Source: Chromatiales bacterium (GTDB lineage Bacteria > Pseudomonadota > Gammaproteobacteria > Thiohalomonadales > Thiohalomonadaceae). From it: a stretch of 6,012 bases of DNA. Positions 1 through 5,296 of the stretch are shown here, piece by piece. The notes beneath the pieces are model-generated. The model had not been told where the DNA came from. It searched no databases and saw nothing but the letters and a program-made list of their open reading frames with translations. The translations under genes were made by a program, and so were the position numbers. The stretch lies in contig JAOTST010000106.1 of NCBI GenBank assembly GCA_029864785.1, positions 1 to 6,012 of the forward strand, in the 5' to 3' direction. Every line of letters begins with the position of its first letter. The first letter of the stretch is position 1.

Positions 1-989
1 ACTTGTAGCGTATCGTTATCTGGAAAAGCAAAATTGACCCATATATGATGACCATCAGGACGAGCCATTACAAATACAGGCTGTCCATGAACATCAATGC
101 GCCCAATTTCACGCCAATTAATCGCATCCATTACAACGACCTGTTTACGACCTACGGCAGGAATAAAGGCAAGATTACCGGCCATCGCCCACCCTTCAAG
201 ATGCGGCATTTTATAAATAGGCATCTTCTTATTTCCACGACCATAATCAACTAAAATATGCTTTATCCCTTTTTCTGGATGCCATAGATCGAGCAATGCC
301 AATCCATCTTCTCCATAAAGCCCCGCAATATAGTGACGCCCGTCGGGACTAATCAATGCATCATATGGCTGCAGGCCAATATCTTTAAACTTGGTTATTT
401 TAGGTGATTGTGGAGAGCTCATATCAAGTATCCAGATCTGATTACCTTCATAGAGGCTGAATACAAATTTATTTCCTGGCGCATCGACCAAGCCAACTAC
501 TTTAGATTGCTTTCCCGTATCATCAAAAATGGCTGGAATATCTGCTATCAATTCAAGTGTATCTGCATTAAATACCTTTACTCCACCAGGACTATAATTG
601 GACACGGCAACCATAGTTCCATCTTGAGATATCGCCCCACCAATACTATTGCCCGATTGCATAACTCTTTTAACAATCTTTTGGGTAAGCATATCGACCT
701 TTGTCAGCCCACCATCACGACCAAAGATATAGGCATAATGTTCATCACGAGAATAGACCACGGAGGCATGAGAGAGGTCTCCGAATTGGTCAAGTGTTTT
801 AATTTTAGTGTGATTTGTCGTCTCTATAATTGAGATCTCGCCCGCCGAGCGATCAATTATAAGCCCCATATCCCCCGTTGCTTTAAATTGACATTCATTC
901 TGCGCCGTACTACTTAATGATGCGCATCCCGATAATAAAGCAACTAAAAATAAGGAGCCTGATAGTGCTCTTAGCAGAGCTTTCAACAT
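1..989 (-). CDS. nirF: NirF, haem d1 biosynthesis lipoprotein (3' end cut by window)
   Basis: NirF is a periplasmic d1-type beta-propeller protein needed for late steps of haem d1 assembly for NirS. The reading frame is open from the ATG at 989 to the left window edge, giving 329 codons; the family is usually about 390-400 residues, so roughly the last 60-70 are missing. Residues 1-22 form a lipoprotein signal with lipobox LSGC (Cys22). Ala and Ser follow the Cys rather than Asp, which suggests outer-membrane sorting. Family-like motifs are HASVVYSRDEHYAYIFGRDG starting at His74, GGLTKVD at 93-99 and MPHLEGWAMAG at 261-271. His74 aligns by context with the haem-d1-binding His of NirS and is the likely functional residue. 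The start overlaps the nirC stop (TGATG, one shared base), and AGAGGGA lies about 7 nt upstream, so it is translationally coupled and the last gene seen of the operon. NirN, a related d1 protein, is the main alternative, but NirN carries an N-terminal CXXCH cytochrome domain that is absent here. Confidence 0.9.
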   Translation of the reverse strand, partial: MLKALLRALSGSLFLVALLSGCASLSSTAQNECQFKATGDMGLIIDRSAGEISIIETTNHTKIKTLDQFGDLSHASVVYSRDEHYAYIFGRDGGLTKVDMLTQKIVKRVMQSGNSIGGAISQDGTMVAVSNYSPGGVKVFNADTLELIADIPAIFDDTGKQSKVVGLVDAPGNKFVFSLYEGNQIWILDMSSPQSPKITKFKDIGLQPYDALISPDGRHYIAGLYGEDGLALLDLWHPEKGIKHILVDYGRGNKKMPIYKMPHLEGWAMAGNLAFIPAVGRKQVVVMDAINWREIGRIDVHGQPVFVMARPDGHHIWVNFAFPDNDTLQ

Positions 990-1330
990 CACCCTATCCC
1001 TCTGCGCAGTAACTTAACCAACCAATCAACCTCATCTTCACTAAAAAATTTACGCCATGGCGGCATAGGTGTTGGAGGACGACCATTGAGAATAGTCTGT
1101 TTTAGCACCTCGTTTGATTTATTTCTGAGACTTTCTGGCAGTAATGATGGGCCAAGACCTCCCTTCAGAGTCATTCCATGACATGCACCACAGTCTTGCT
1201 TTACTAAATGAATAAGTTCCTTCTGTCGTTCTAAAGAGGGTTCAGCTGATACCGAAGCGGTTACTGATGAAACCATAATTAAACCCATGGCAACCAGCAC
1301 ACTTCGATATAACGTCCTACTCAACAACAT
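989..1330 (-). CDS. nirC: NirC-like small monohaem cytochrome c (cytochrome c55X family)
   Basis: The protein has 113 residues, the usual size for the NirC/cytochrome c55X family. It has a Sec signal peptide (basic residues at 5 and 9, hydrophobic core about 10-24, likely cleavage near VSA at 27-29). One haem c site, CGACH, lies at 47-51. The TPMPPW motif at 87-92 supplies Met89 as probable sixth ligand. The segment from QDCGACHGM through GGLGPSLLPESL is close to remembered Pseudomonas NirC sequences. In that family the protein is a periplasmic electron carrier that can donate to NirS or serve haem d1 maturation. The ATG at 1330 has AGGAG six bases upstream and overlaps the end of the cupredoxin gene by 14 bp; its stop overlaps the nirF start, so all three are coupled. 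Family assignment is firm. Whether its role is electron donation or d1 maturation cannot be told from sequence. Confidence 0.88.
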   Translation of the reverse strand: MLLSRTLYRSVLVAMGLIMVSSVTASVSAEPSLERQKELIHLVKQDCGACHGMTLKGGLGPSLLPESLRNKSNEVLKQTILNGRPPTPMPPWRKFFSEDEVDWLVKLLRRGIG

Positions 1331-1664
1331 GAACCACTCCTGTCATTTCTGGATGAGGCCCGCAACGATATTCAAAACTGCCTACCTGATCAAAATGTCG
1401 TGAGTAGGCCTCATCAGGAAAGATATAGTCTGGTTCTGGATCACCATATTTTTCAAACCAGACACTGTGATATTGACGTTTTTCCCGATTAATCCAGTGA
1501 ACACTCTCACCCCGTTTTATGGTTATCTCCTGTGGGATAAATTTCATTTTCTGAAGAGTTACAATAGAGCTTCCAGCAGGAAACTCTAAAGCCACGGCAT
1601 TCATCACCTGAAATGAAATAACCAACAACGAGGCCAGTACTATTCTATGGATTACATTCAACAT
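1317..1664 (-). CDS. Small periplasmic cupredoxin (amicyanin/plastocyanin-like blue copper protein)
   Basis: The protein has 115 residues from the ATG at 1664. A hydrophobic signal peptide covers about residues 5-25 (likely cleavage near NAVA), followed by a single cupredoxin domain. Type 1 copper ligands are visible: His66 in YHSVWF, then Cys101, His104 and Met107 in CGPHPEM. The C-x2-H-x2-M spacing is that of amicyanin rather than the C-x2-H-x4-M of plastocyanin and pseudoazurin. A GTG six codons upstream (1682) extends the frame in phase but has no Shine-Dalgarno sequence in front. The ATG has GAAGG about 11 nt upstream, so it is preferred with moderate certainty. The gene starts 44 bp after the nirT-like stop and overlaps nirC by 14 bp. 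Position between a quinol-oxidising cytochrome and NirC suggests a one-electron carrier toward NirS (inference). A copper-handling role is less likely, since no methionine- or histidine-rich segment is present. Confidence 0.85.
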   Translation of the reverse strand: MLNVIHRIVLASLLVISFQVMNAVALEFPAGSSIVTLQKMKFIPQEITIKRGESVHWINREKRQYHSVWFEKYGDPEPDYIFPDEAYSRHFDQVGSFEYRCGPHPEMTGVVHVVE

Positions 1665-1708
1665 CTGCTGGTTAGCCTTCACCTGATAATCGTTATTTAA
1701 ATTTTAAA

Positions 1709-3337
1709 TTAATGTTTAATTGCATTAATTTCAGCCTCATCATTATCAAATCCCAACTTATACCCCACAGAGACATGATGATAGCGTGAATTGCTATAAT
1801 CATCGTGAATTGCGAACCCGATGTTATAGGTCTGATCTAAGGCCATACTAATATCGCCTTTCTGATCGGAGAGCAGCTTACGTTTCATCTCAACAACCCA
1901 TTGGCCATCTTTAAGGTGTGCATTGAACTCTGCACCTTGCCCACCTTCCATCACGCGGTCTGACAAAATATATCCATCCTCAACTACTTTTTCACCCGCT
2001 TTATAGCGGATAATATCCATAAAGTGACCGGCATCCAACTCGGTCTGAATCTCTTCATCACTATTGCGCTTATCCCATCCACCTAAAGGTTTTCCTCCAC
2101 GACCTCTTACCTCGATCTTACTTCGACTCTCTTTAAGGTATTTGCTCACTTCTCCGCTTTCAGGAACATACGGCATATTATTGGCATCTGCATGACAAGT
2201 CGCCCAACAGCCTGCCCGATCGGAGTACTCCACATCATCGGTTGAAATCATCATTGCAAGCTTCATGGGATTTTTAGGATCCATTTTACCGCCATCGGCA
2301 AAAGGAACGGGGGCATGCTCACTGTCAGGCCAACTAAAGCGAAGGTAGAGATTTTCATCATCATGTGTAGCATTGATGGTGACAGGAATACTTCCTCGTT
2401 TTCCGGGAATGACCGTAGGCTCAACGCCCTCTTTGGCGCCCGTGACAATCTTCTCGCCAATCTCTGCAGTCTCTTCTACATGGCAATCAAAACAGCGGTC
2501 GCCTGCCTTAAATGGACGAGCTCCACCATGGTCTTTACCACGTAGAACCCACTCTAAAGAAGCTTGGCCTGGATAAAAGAGCGTAGCTAACATCTCTGAT
2601 GAACCTCCCCAATTAACCATGCTATCGCCAGAATCTGCTGAATCGCCAGCCGGTGCAGATACCACCGCTTTGGTTGCGTGTTTTTCTGCTGATTGCTTGT
2701 CAATAAATGCCTGCCATTGTGGAGGCAGCTCTTTCATCGCCAGCGCTGGATCAGGTGCTGAAAGTTTATCTAGCTCTTCATCAGTGAGTTGATCATGAAC
2801 CTTCTTATGAGCGATGCCCTTGTGACAATCAATACAGGTATTGCCTGCTCGCATTGCATTAATATGTTGCTTTCTTGCACGAGGCTTTTGCGTCTCTGGA
2901 TTCATGGTTGTGAAGTCATGACAGTTTCGACACTCGCGAGAGTTAGTCGTTTTCATGGTATTCCAAACATGTTTTGCCAATGTTAATCGCTTTGCATCAA
3001 ATTTTTCTGGCGTATCAATCGTTCCTAAAATTTTATGCAATACTTCATTAGATGCCTGTATTTTTCGTATTACTTTATGCCCCCATGTTTTTGGTACATG
3101 GCAGTCTGAACAGATAGCTCGCACACCAGCACGGTTATTGTAGTGAATCGTATGGGTATACTCCTGATAAACATTCTCTTCCATCTCATGGCAAGAGGTA
3201 CAGAATGTTAAGGTATTGGTGACCTCCATGGCCGTGTTAAATCCTCCCCAAAAAATAATACCAATCAGCATAAATACCAATGCCACCCCCACAGAGGTTC
3301 CCAATATTATTTTACGTGAAAAAAAACCACCATTCAT
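1709..3337 (-). CDS. NapC/NirT-type membrane multihaem cytochrome c fused to an ethylbenzene-dehydrogenase-type haem domain
   Basis: The 542-residue protein has two parts. Residues 1-180 are a NapC/NirT module: an N-terminal membrane anchor (about 10-31) after a short basic stretch, then four CXXCH sites at 46-50, 76-80, 136-140 and 168-172. This family oxidises quinol and passes electrons to periplasmic reductases. After a hydrophilic Ala/Ser/Gly/Asp-rich linker (about 180-245) comes a second module with CFDCH at 282-286 and an atypical CWATCH (CX3CH) at 377-382. This module resembles the cytochrome c-552/DMSO-reductase-like haem-binding domain seen in the ethylbenzene dehydrogenase gamma subunit; WVVEMKRKL (480-488) and the C-terminal IHDDYSNSRYHHVSVGYKLG (510-529) are typical. 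Classical NirT has about 200 residues and lacks this extension. The ATG at 3337 has GGGAG about 7 nt upstream. As the first gene after the nirS terminator, it is the probable quinol-to-NirS link. The modules are clear; the function of the second is unknown. Confidence 0.88.
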   Translation of the reverse strand: MNGGFFSRKIILGTSVGVALVFMLIGIIFWGGFNTAMEVTNTLTFCTSCHEMEENVYQEYTHTIHYNNRAGVRAICSDCHVPKTWGHKVIRKIQASNEVLHKILGTIDTPEKFDAKRLTLAKHVWNTMKTTNSRECRNCHDFTTMNPETQKPRARKQHINAMRAGNTCIDCHKGIAHKKVHDQLTDEELDKLSAPDPALAMKELPPQWQAFIDKQSAEKHATKAVVSAPAGDSADSGDSMVNWGGSSEMLATLFYPGQASLEWVLRGKDHGGARPFKAGDRCFDCHVEETAEIGEKIVTGAKEGVEPTVIPGKRGSIPVTINATHDDENLYLRFSWPDSEHAPVPFADGGKMDPKNPMKLAMMISTDDVEYSDRAGCWATCHADANNMPYVPESGEVSKYLKESRSKIEVRGRGGKPLGGWDKRNSDEEIQTELDAGHFMDIIRYKAGEKVVEDGYILSDRVMEGGQGAEFNAHLKDGQWVVEMKRKLLSDQKGDISMALDQTYNIGFAIHDDYSNSRYHHVSVGYKLGFDNDEAEINAIKH

Positions 3338-3509: not shown

Positions 3510-3538
3510 AAAAATGAGGTGGGCGCAATGCCCACCTC
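3510..3538 (-). terminator. Rho-independent terminator of nirS
   Basis: A perfect 9-bp GC-rich stem (GAGGTGGGC/GCCCACCTC, 3516-3524 and 3530-3538) encloses a 5-nt loop. On the minus strand it is followed by ATTTTT. It begins about 20 bp after the nirS stop codon. On the plus strand no T-run follows the stem, so it acts in the nirS direction. It separates nirS from the nirT-like operon. Confidence 0.88.
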
Positions 3539-3558: not shown

Positions 3559-5187
3559 CTAGGTTACATGGTTAACACGGTTGTGCACGTTGAACTTACC
3601 TGTTGGTGCATACAGACCTTTAATGCGAGTCTTCTCTTTAAGAGTATTCGCATCAAAGATGATGATTTCACCATTAGGCTTCAGACTATCTGCACGATTC
3701 CATACAGAAACCCAAACTTCAGAACCATCATTATTGAACTCAATATGAACGGCCGCGTAGCCTTTCTTCTTGGTCAAACGGATTGTCTTAACAATCTCAC
3801 GGCTCTTCTTAGAGATAACCTGAACAGATTGCTGAATTTCTGGATCTGGATTTTTGGTTTGGTCTGCCCATACGTATTTAGACTTAGGGTGTGTACGCAA
3901 GAATACGCCGGCACCATCAGTTTCAACTTCGTAACAGATTTTCCATGCCTGCTTTTTATGACCCTTAGGATCATTACCCCAAACAGTCACTTTACCTACA
4001 CCCAGGTGAGTCGTTCCACTTACAGGACCACACTTAGGATCATTCCAGTTAGCACCAGGACCAGGATGCGGCTTTTTATCAACATCAATCATCGCCTCAA
4101 GTTTCTGCGTTTTTGAGTCAATAATAACCATCTTATTCGACGCATTTGCAGCAATCTGGAAATAACGACCGGTTGGATCGTAGAAACCATCATGCAGATA
4201 CTTAGCTGAATCGATTTTGGTCATTTTCAGGTTATCAATATCACTATAATCAACCTGCCACATCTGCCCCAGCTCTTTCATAGAGACCAACCAACTGGTT
4301 GCCATAGGAGTGTCATAAACAGCGGCAACACGAGACTCATTAACATATTCACCGTCAATGTTGACACCACGTGAAGAGACAACCTTCAGAGGCATCATAG
4401 TCTTAGAATCAAGAATGACAAAGTGAGGAGGCCAATAAGCGCCACCAATAACATATTTGCCATCACCTGAAACTGCTACATCACGTGCATCATAGGCAAC
4501 CTGTACCTGAGCCACCTTCATTTTATCAGGAGTCTGCCACAGATCGACTTTGGTCATCATGCCGTCACGCCCCATAATGTACCAGAAGCGTCCTCTATCC
4601 TTAGCCTTCAGGAAGTCATGATGCTCAACAGTTTTGAGTACGTGTACTGCATAACCGGTAGGAATGTGGGCCACAATCTCTTTTGTATCACCATCAATAA
4701 TCGCAATTTTTCCTACATCACGTTCAATAACGAGGAAGAAATTATCCCAGTTACGACCATGTAACGGCTTGGTGGGATAGTCTTTAGGCTGAACATAAAC
4801 CTTATGACGTTTCTTCATCAGTGCAAGAGACATCTCTGGCGGTACTGGTGGCTCATGCTGAATATACTTAGCTAATAACTGAATCTCTTTCTTGGAGAAA
4901 ATATCATTAAAGTTATTCATCCCTCCATCAGTACCAAGTTCAATGATACGAGATAGGCGCTTAGTACCTTTTTTAATTGTATTTTTTGGCTCCAGATTTT
5001 TTCCTGTAGCCCCCTTACGTAAAACACCATGACAACCAGCGCAACGCTGGAAATACATAGAATTTGCTTTATCAAACTCAGCTTTGGATAGTGCCGGCGC
5101 TTTGGTATTCGCAGCGTTTGCGGTCCCTCCTAGACTAAGTCCAATAGCCATAGCTATTGCAGATAACCCTAATATCCTCTTTTGCAT
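3559..5187 (-). CDS. nirS: Cytochrome cd1 nitrite reductase NirS
   Basis: NirS is the periplasmic haem c/haem d1 enzyme that reduces nitrite to nitric oxide. The 542-residue precursor has a Sec signal peptide (MQKR basic start, hydrophobic core to about 20, cleavage near TANA at 22-25). An N-terminal cytochrome c domain follows with CAGCH at 49-53 and Met90 as probable distal ligand. The remainder is the eight-bladed d1 propeller. His182 in GYAVH is the proximal d1 ligand, and His332 (YLHDG) and His374 (KPHPGPGANW) match the two active-site histidines of Pseudomonas/Paracoccus NirS. The ending PTGKFNVHN is family-typical. The ATG at 5187 is chosen because AAGGAGGT lies 4 nt upstream; the frame is open farther up, to 5283, but that would run through the promoter. 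Compared with remembered Pseudomonas NirS there is a loop of about 12 residues after His182 and a shorter loop near residue 240, as in a divergent NirS subgroup. It has its own FNR-type promoter and terminator. Confidence 0.97.
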   Translation of the reverse strand: MQKRILGLSAIAMAIGLSLGGTANAANTKAPALSKAEFDKANSMYFQRCAGCHGVLRKGATGKNLEPKNTIKKGTKRLSRIIELGTDGGMNNFNDIFSKKEIQLLAKYIQHEPPVPPEMSLALMKKRHKVYVQPKDYPTKPLHGRNWDNFFLVIERDVGKIAIIDGDTKEIVAHIPTGYAVHVLKTVEHHDFLKAKDRGRFWYIMGRDGMMTKVDLWQTPDKMKVAQVQVAYDARDVAVSGDGKYVIGGAYWPPHFVILDSKTMMPLKVVSSRGVNIDGEYVNESRVAAVYDTPMATSWLVSMKELGQMWQVDYSDIDNLKMTKIDSAKYLHDGFYDPTGRYFQIAANASNKMVIIDSKTQKLEAMIDVDKKPHPGPGANWNDPKCGPVSGTTHLGVGKVTVWGNDPKGHKKQAWKICYEVETDGAGVFLRTHPKSKYVWADQTKNPDPEIQQSVQVISKKSREIVKTIRLTKKKGYAAVHIEFNNDGSEVWVSVWNRADSLKPNGEIIIFDANTLKEKTRIKGLYAPTGKFNVHNRVNHVT

Positions 5188-5191
5188 AACG

Positions 5192-5199
5192 ACCTCCTT
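5192..5199 (-). promoter_or_regulatory. Strong ribosome binding site of nirS
   Basis: AAGGAGGT on the minus strand is a full anti-Shine-Dalgarno match and sits 4 nt before the ATG at 5187. It settles the nirS start in favour of 5187 over the in-frame upstream ATG codons, and implies high translation. Confidence 0.9.
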
Positions 5200-5254
5200 A
5201 TGCATAATTAACATAACAAACAACGATAAAAAAATATTTTTTACTACGGACTTG

Positions 5255-5260
5255 ACTACA
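5255..5260 (-). promoter_or_regulatory. Candidate -10 box of the nirS promoter
   Basis: TGTAGT on the minus strand matches TATAAT at four of six positions. It lies where a -10 is expected if the FNR/DNR box at 5283-5296 is centred at -41.5 (class II activation), which puts the transcript start near 5249 and gives a leader of about 60 nt. The hexamer alone is weak; the spacing is the main support. Confidence 0.45.
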
Positions 5261-5282
5261 ACACAGGCGGACAAAGTCAACA

Positions 5283-5296
5283 TTGATAAAGGTCAA
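5283..5296 (-). promoter_or_regulatory. FNR/DNR/NNR-type binding site upstream of nirS
   Basis: The minus strand reads TTGACCTTTATCAA, which matches the TTGAT-N4-ATCAA consensus at nine of ten defined positions. It sits about 95 bp before the nirS start, in the norD-nirS gap. CRP/FNR-family regulators of this type (Anr, Dnr, NNR) switch on nir and nor genes under low oxygen and NO. Which family member binds here cannot be told from the site. Confidence 0.8.

Follow-up and report, generated by a model that had tools for sequence, protein, structure and literature searches.

In the nirSTBM operon of P. stutzeri, a tetrahaem quinol dehydrogenase of the NapC/NirT family (NirT) and a dihaem cytochrome of the EB_dh type (NirB) are encoded directly after nirS, the gene of cytochrome cd1 nitrite reductase (PMC8954225, PMC13086519). 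According to the first of these sources, NirB is the dihaem cytochrome c-552, an order NirT to NirB to NirS is implied, and Rhodocyclus makes NirB without NirS or corresponding reductases, so that NirB-type proteins can serve elsewhere (PMC8954225). In a fitness table for P. stutzeri RCH2, NirS is the entry for Psest_0815 and 'Ethylbenzene dehydrogenase' the one for Psest_0817; under chromate each gene scored -2.1, and the values without chromate were small (-0.5 and -0.7, respectively) (PMC5554334). NapC/NirT quinol dehydrogenases are known to pair with NirB and with the similar NapO and PcrO (PMC8954225, PMC5845722). NapO and PcrO are described as dihaem proteins homologous to the gamma subunit of ethylbenzene dehydrogenase (EBDH gamma), and deletion of either napC or napO leaves cells unable to grow on nitrate alone (PMC5845722). 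EBDH gamma itself and NXR-C carry one haem b each and are found beside a molybdoenzyme (PMC8387239); a word search of the available text of the NXR paper found no wording on the haem ligands of NXR-C.

The window, by which we mean the whole stretch of 6,012 nucleotides analysed here, has the gene content of the P. stutzeri operon in that a NapC/NirT part and an EB_dh-type dihaem part are encoded directly after nirS. It differs from that operon in three respects: NirT and NirB form one polypeptide, a cupredoxin gene stands at the place of nirM, and NirS belongs to a different clade. Fused NirTB has been found before, e.g., in Halomonas sp. 2A (Li et al., 2018, cited in PMC13086519), where by the description in the citing sentence the fusion is the same; within the literature searched, the consulted part of PMC13086519 holds the only mention that we found. 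The NapC/NapO and PcrQ/PcrO pairs of Azospira suillum PS are also alike by description, each combining a NapC/NirT quinol dehydrogenase with a dihaem EBDH gamma homologue, but they are separate proteins and serve nitrate or perchlorate reductase (PMC5845722).

One Reading Frame, Two Modules and Six Haem Motifs

The first-pass annotation had described a four-CXXCH NapC/NirT module, a linker and a CFDCH/CWATCH module within one protein, an arrangement that Pfam and the sequence both confirm (Table 1). The profile searches that it had proposed matched both halves: the 542-residue protein scored 236.5 bits with PF03264 against a cut-off of 24.1, and PF09459 (EB_dh) matched the C-terminal half, with its best stretch at residues 307-471. 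The lack of any domain hit in that half, which had been named as counter-evidence, was not what we observed. With the NCBIfam model TIGR02161 (napC_nirT) the fusion remains below the cut-off (256.9 against 310.6 bits), as does the fused Azospirillum protein (275.5), and the split NirT of locus L180 lies above it (317.2). In TorC pentahaem cytochromes, too, a NapC-type domain is fused to a C-terminal cytochrome part; unlike TorC, however, the fusion reaches only 229.5 bits with TIGR02162 against a cut-off of 478.2, the NirT part alone matching. The N-terminal half has the traits of the NapC/NirT family, namely four CXXCH motifs, the first of them CXXCHxM, and an acidic residue at the place of NrfH Asp89. 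Invariant Glu98 of the fusion stands in the alignment opposite the acidic residue that ligates haem in NrfH, the ligand residues used for comparison being those given in PMC10654088. The NirT half of the predicted structure is of low confidence.

The C-terminal half has the traits of NirB-type proteins, i.e., an EB_dh domain with two c-type haem motifs, and the same motif pair is common to split NirB-type proteins. That these motifs arose by chance was ruled out by their conservation, CXXCH being present in all 103 modules and CWXXCH in 102. The sole exception is found in L065 (9974-11794), where the second Cys of CX3CH is replaced by Ser (CWGTSH), and Cys381 is absent only there. Candidate haem ligands are His286, His382, Met388, His511 and His520, none of which varies in either alignment, and in the profile alignment Asn505 stands opposite a lysine that we take to be the haem ligand of EBDH gamma. 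Since the two motifs and the candidate residues are conserved, and since Asn505 occupies the place of that lysine, two covalently bound haems are favoured over one haem b in the NirB-type module.

Table 1. Coordinates of the features of the window, with the evidence for each
Feature	Position	Strand	Evidence
Fused NirT-NirB gene, 542 aa	1709..3337	-	ORF; Pfam; module tree
Predicted N-terminal membrane helix, residues 6-40	3218..3322	-	helix in predicted model; membrane role inferred
NapC/NirT domain, residues 17-180	2798..3289	-	PF03264
Haem motif 1, CTSCH (CXXCHxM)	3188..3202	-	CXXCHxM in 80/80 loci (best 80 of 276)
Haem motif 2, CSDCH	3098..3112	-	invariant, alignment of 43
Haem motif 3, CRNCH	2918..2932	-	sequence; alignment of 43
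Haem motif 4, CIDCH	2822..2836	-	sequence; alignment of 43
Linker, about residues 183-240	2618..2791	-	length varies in alignment; residues 223-236 pLDDT <50
NirB-type (EB_dh) module, residues 241-542	1712..2617	-	PF09459; predicted fold; tree
Haem motif 5, CFDCH, at residue 282	2480..2494	-	CXXCH in 103/103 modules
Haem motif 6, CWATCH (CX3CH), at residue 377	2192..2209	-	CWXXCH in 102/103 modules
nirS, cytochrome cd1 nitrite reductase	3559..5283	-	PF02239, PF13442; solved NirS relatives
Terminator-like hairpin between nirS and fusion	3516..3538	-	consensus scan
Amicyanin-like cupredoxin, copper loop C-GP-H-PE-M	1317..1682	-	PF00127; sequence
NirC-like monohaem cytochrome c	989..1330	-	PF13442; name inferred from position and size
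NirF-like protein, cut by window end	3..992	-	PF02239

Neighboring Genes

The likely true start of nirS lies near 5187, where a signal-peptide-like stretch begins. Upstream of nirS, an FNR-type box with one mismatch is found at 5283-5296; the pattern has three matches in the window against 0.57 expected by chance. The fusion and the cupredoxin, NirC-like and NirF-like genes behind it form a row of four, each 26 bases from the next or overlapping it. The putative terminator downstream of nirS may mean that the cell makes less of the fusion than of NirS. Elsewhere in the host genome, another contig encodes a second NirS, 45% identical (L199, 736-2400), and L198 (1-1800) encodes an EB_dh protein of 599 residues that has two cytochrome c motifs.

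Identity of the C-Terminal Half

Two loci, L180 and L215, carry the NirT and NirB-type halves as separate genes directly after nirS, a gene order that matches nirSTBM of P. stutzeri. A tree of 35 modules, with an outgroup of five rows (NirT-partner EB_dh proteins from other settings), separates the fused and the split NirB-type modules into sister groups; the support is 100/99 for the split group, and 94/83 with and 100/98 without Azospirillum for the fused group. The fused modules therein group with the NirB-type proteins and not with the other NirT-partner EB_dh proteins. The earlier suggestion of a haem-b output domain borrowed from the EBDH type is not borne out by this placement of the second half, which is among NirB-type dihaem c-type cytochromes. 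Because of the tree, the gene order of the split loci, the RCH2 table and the papers on NirB, NapO and PcrO, we read the C-terminal half as most likely a NirB-type dihaem cytochrome, the name being taken from the operon order and the RCH2 table.

Distribution and Association With nirS

A protein search gave 3180 proteins with E <= 0.001 among 7998 scored candidates; some of these 3180 may share one domain only. Scanning of genomes found 276 stretches that encode a relative, and the best 80 of these were analysed as loci. Among these 80, the end of nirS lies at most 700 bases upstream of the fusion in 74 of the 75 testable loci, the upstream sequence of the five others being too short to judge. 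The single testable locus without nirS at this place (L042) has a run of 100 N at 9828-9927 just before the fusion, and its genome holds only two weaker NirS matches, 33 and 36% identical; nirS may sit in the assembly gap or be absent.

A sample of 369 genomes from the class, in which neighboring matches of one gene were merged by hand, contained the fusion or its EB part in 27, and in 23 of these nirS is found on the same contig, 100-345 bases upstream and in the same order. Contig edges affect the remaining four: in G094 the last 67 residues of a NirS lie at the contig edge, and in G147, G154 and G361 a contig edge cuts the region. In the phylum sample (398 genomes), five genomes beyond the host passed the threshold, with four fusions and one split nirS-nirT-nirB pair (G714) that was excluded from the fusion count; nirS is directly upstream in all four fusions. 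Plasmid records contain the fusion over most of its length in five cases. The three plasmid regions examined (Azospirillum brasilense Sp7, Ruegeria sp. AD91A and Aliiroseovarius sp. M344) all show a cytochrome D1 protein/nitrite reductase, then the fusion, then a copper-binding protein. We also note two consecutive nirS genes, 72 and 69% identical to that of the window, directly before a fusion at G219:C24:22696-25958.

Adjacency of the fusion to nirS is thus nearly absolute wherever it can be read. The first-pass annotation had proposed a survey of how often the two lie side by side, and had noted that fusions occurring mainly away from nirS would speak against it; the best 80 loci, the class sample, the phylum sample and the plasmids together rule out such a distribution. 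The fusion represents a known type of system in a fused and widespread form, and not a new type.

The NirS Partner Clade

In a NirS tree of 68 rows, 64 of which differ, 55 rows including that of the window form one strongly separated clade. Downstream sequence is readable for 54 of them, and the NirT part is present in 54 and the EB part in 51, counts that include split pairs and rows (L003-L082) chosen for carrying the fusion. Because many rows were chosen in this way, the class sample is the fairer test: there, 26 genomes have a NirS of the window clade and 25 of these also have the fusion or its EB part, the remaining one (G319) having a fragment of such a NirS and no fusion. On the Sp7 plasmid of A. 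brasilense (L200, 6238-9584), fused NirTB lies beside a NirS of another clade, 44% identical to that of the window and placed next to the split locus L180 in the NirS tree. The pairing in A. brasilense of the fusion with this other NirS shows that there is more than one combination of fusion and NirS type.

Tandem NirT-NirB-NirB Proteins

A second NirB module is present in the same reading frame in 23 of the best 80 loci (of 276), giving eight c-type haem motifs, as for example in the 942-residue protein of the isolate Sedimenticola selenatireducens DSM 17993 (L044, 2286-5114). A quick module tree covered 22 of these 23 loci, L080, which is cut by its contig, being left out. The two modules of a locus are direct sisters in 10 of the 22; they are unresolved in L070 and apart in L053, and in four tubeworm-symbiont and six Sedimenticola loci the first and the second modules form two sister groups. 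Pairwise module identities were obtained for 18 of the 23 tandem loci, as the motif filter missed some, and it also omitted 19 single-module loci. Because of the 10 direct sister pairs and the sister groups in 10 further loci, the tandem copies appear either to have been duplicated repeatedly or to have been kept alike, e.g., by gene conversion.

Proposed Electron Route and Alternatives

We consider it probable that the NirT-NirB fusion carries electrons from membrane quinol through four haems and then two more to NirS. The N-terminal helix would anchor the fusion in the membrane, and quinol would be oxidised at haem 1, as the CXXCHxM motif and the invariant Glu98 suggest. Electrons would then cross the four NirT haems and the two probably covalent NirB haems, and the NirB module would likely hand them to NirS, which would reduce nitrite to nitric oxide, in the putative order NirT to NirB to NirS. 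The cupredoxin, in the operon place of nirM, would act as a parallel soluble donor. Because the host genome also encodes the cytochrome b of bc1, the cupredoxin and NirC may provide a second, parallel path, and NirS could be fed without the fusion. Further points against the proposed route are the NirT and NirB-like pairs found away from nirS (L182, L183, L185, L186), the making of NirB without NirS in Rhodocyclus, the small fitness loss of the two RCH2 genes without chromate, the TIGR02161 score below the cut-off and the low confidence of the NirT half of the model. The six-haem conduit from quinol to nitrite reductase that had been suggested at first thus stands in part: motifs, domains and nirS adjacency place a potentially six-haem fusion for such a link, but an EBDH-type haem-b output domain as part of it is not supported.

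Delivery by the NirB module mainly to the neighboring cupredoxin (or to NirC), which would in turn reduce NirS, seems unlikely to us, even though among the best 80 of 276 loci a cupredoxin gene follows within 700 bases of the fusion in 68 of the 74 testable ones, six others being unjudgeable, and is present in the three plasmid regions examined. It is missing from that place in six testable loci, the 10 kb taken at L213 contain NirS and the fusion but gave no match to a cupredoxin, and bc1 is available and could feed the cupredoxin instead. A still less probable view is that the main job of the fusion is the reductive activation of NirS when denitrification starts, and not the supply of electrons for turnover. 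NapC is reported to activate cytochrome cd1 (Zajicek, 2004, cited in PMC13086519) and a similar role has been suggested for NirT (PMC13086519), but the same source describes NirT as a requirement for functional nitrite reduction by strain ZoBell, and the similar NapC/NapO pair carries respiratory electrons (PMC5845722).

We regard it as highly improbable that the EB_dh half serves as a gamma-type subunit that carries haem b and docks a molybdoenzyme. The predicted C-terminal fold does match EBDH gamma and NXR-C (2ivf_C and 7b04_C), and profile matches have E values of 3.7e-08 and 1.1e-05. The fusion differs from these subunits, however, in having two c-type haem motifs, conserved across the modules, and in having no molybdoenzyme neighbor; it scores 21.6 bits with TIGR03477 (DMSO reductase type II gamma subunit) against a cut-off of 169.85, and the neighbors of its relatives are nirS and the cupredoxin gene. 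Pfam found no molybdoenzyme domain in the 6,012 nucleotides of the window, in agreement with the first-pass annotation, and the five PF00384 matches of the host genome are all on other contigs.

Related Gene Pairs and Implications

Several other gene sets contain related proteins. In L183 (4387-9374), the genes of a DmsE-family (decahaem) cytochrome with 11 CXXCH and of an MtrB/PioB porin immediately precede those of an unfused NirT and an EB_dh dihaem protein, a set that could possibly form a conduit from quinone to the outer membrane. L182 (6398-9454), L185 (5956-9103) and L186 (8185-11016) each encode in a row a NirT, an EB_dh dihaem protein and a protein of about 400 residues with one CXXCH near its start. 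Two of the three latter proteins have a weak porin match; no NCBIfam model matched these barrels, which reached at most Porin_4 below its cut-off and which we presume to resemble Cyc2. In L151 (1411-3850), a larger unfused EB_dh protein (CXXCH, CWXTCH) is encoded next to, and in partial overlap with, a reading frame that contains ten CXXCH motifs.

Alongside the preferred route from quinol through NirT and NirB to NirS, these pairs permit a wider reading, which as a joint whole we offer tentatively and with some doubt. NirB would be a plug-in wire: fused to NirT next to NirS of one clade, found in largely marine Proteobacteria, it would give NirS a quinol line independent of bc1; it would then have been doubled in several lineages (NirT-NirB-NirB, with eight c-type haems), the copies being kept alike by repeated copying; and related NirT and NirB-like pairs would be wired to outer-membrane conduits, either MtrB/PioB together with a cytochrome of the decahaem type or a barrel with one haem. 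Among the findings, the tandem proteins and the pairs beside outer-membrane conduit genes are the less expected ones.

Electrons may reach NirS via bc1 and soluble carriers or via NirT, and in the literature consulted the part of NirB is only implied. One polypeptide that would hold the line from quinol to NirB, with a gene that nearly always adjoins nirS, allows the order NirT to NirB to NirS to be tested on a single purified protein. It also follows that in such genomes the labels 'ethylbenzene dehydrogenase-related' and 'cytochrome C552' can mean nitrite respiration and not hydrocarbon breakdown, an ambiguity that matters for metagenomes interpreted by label.
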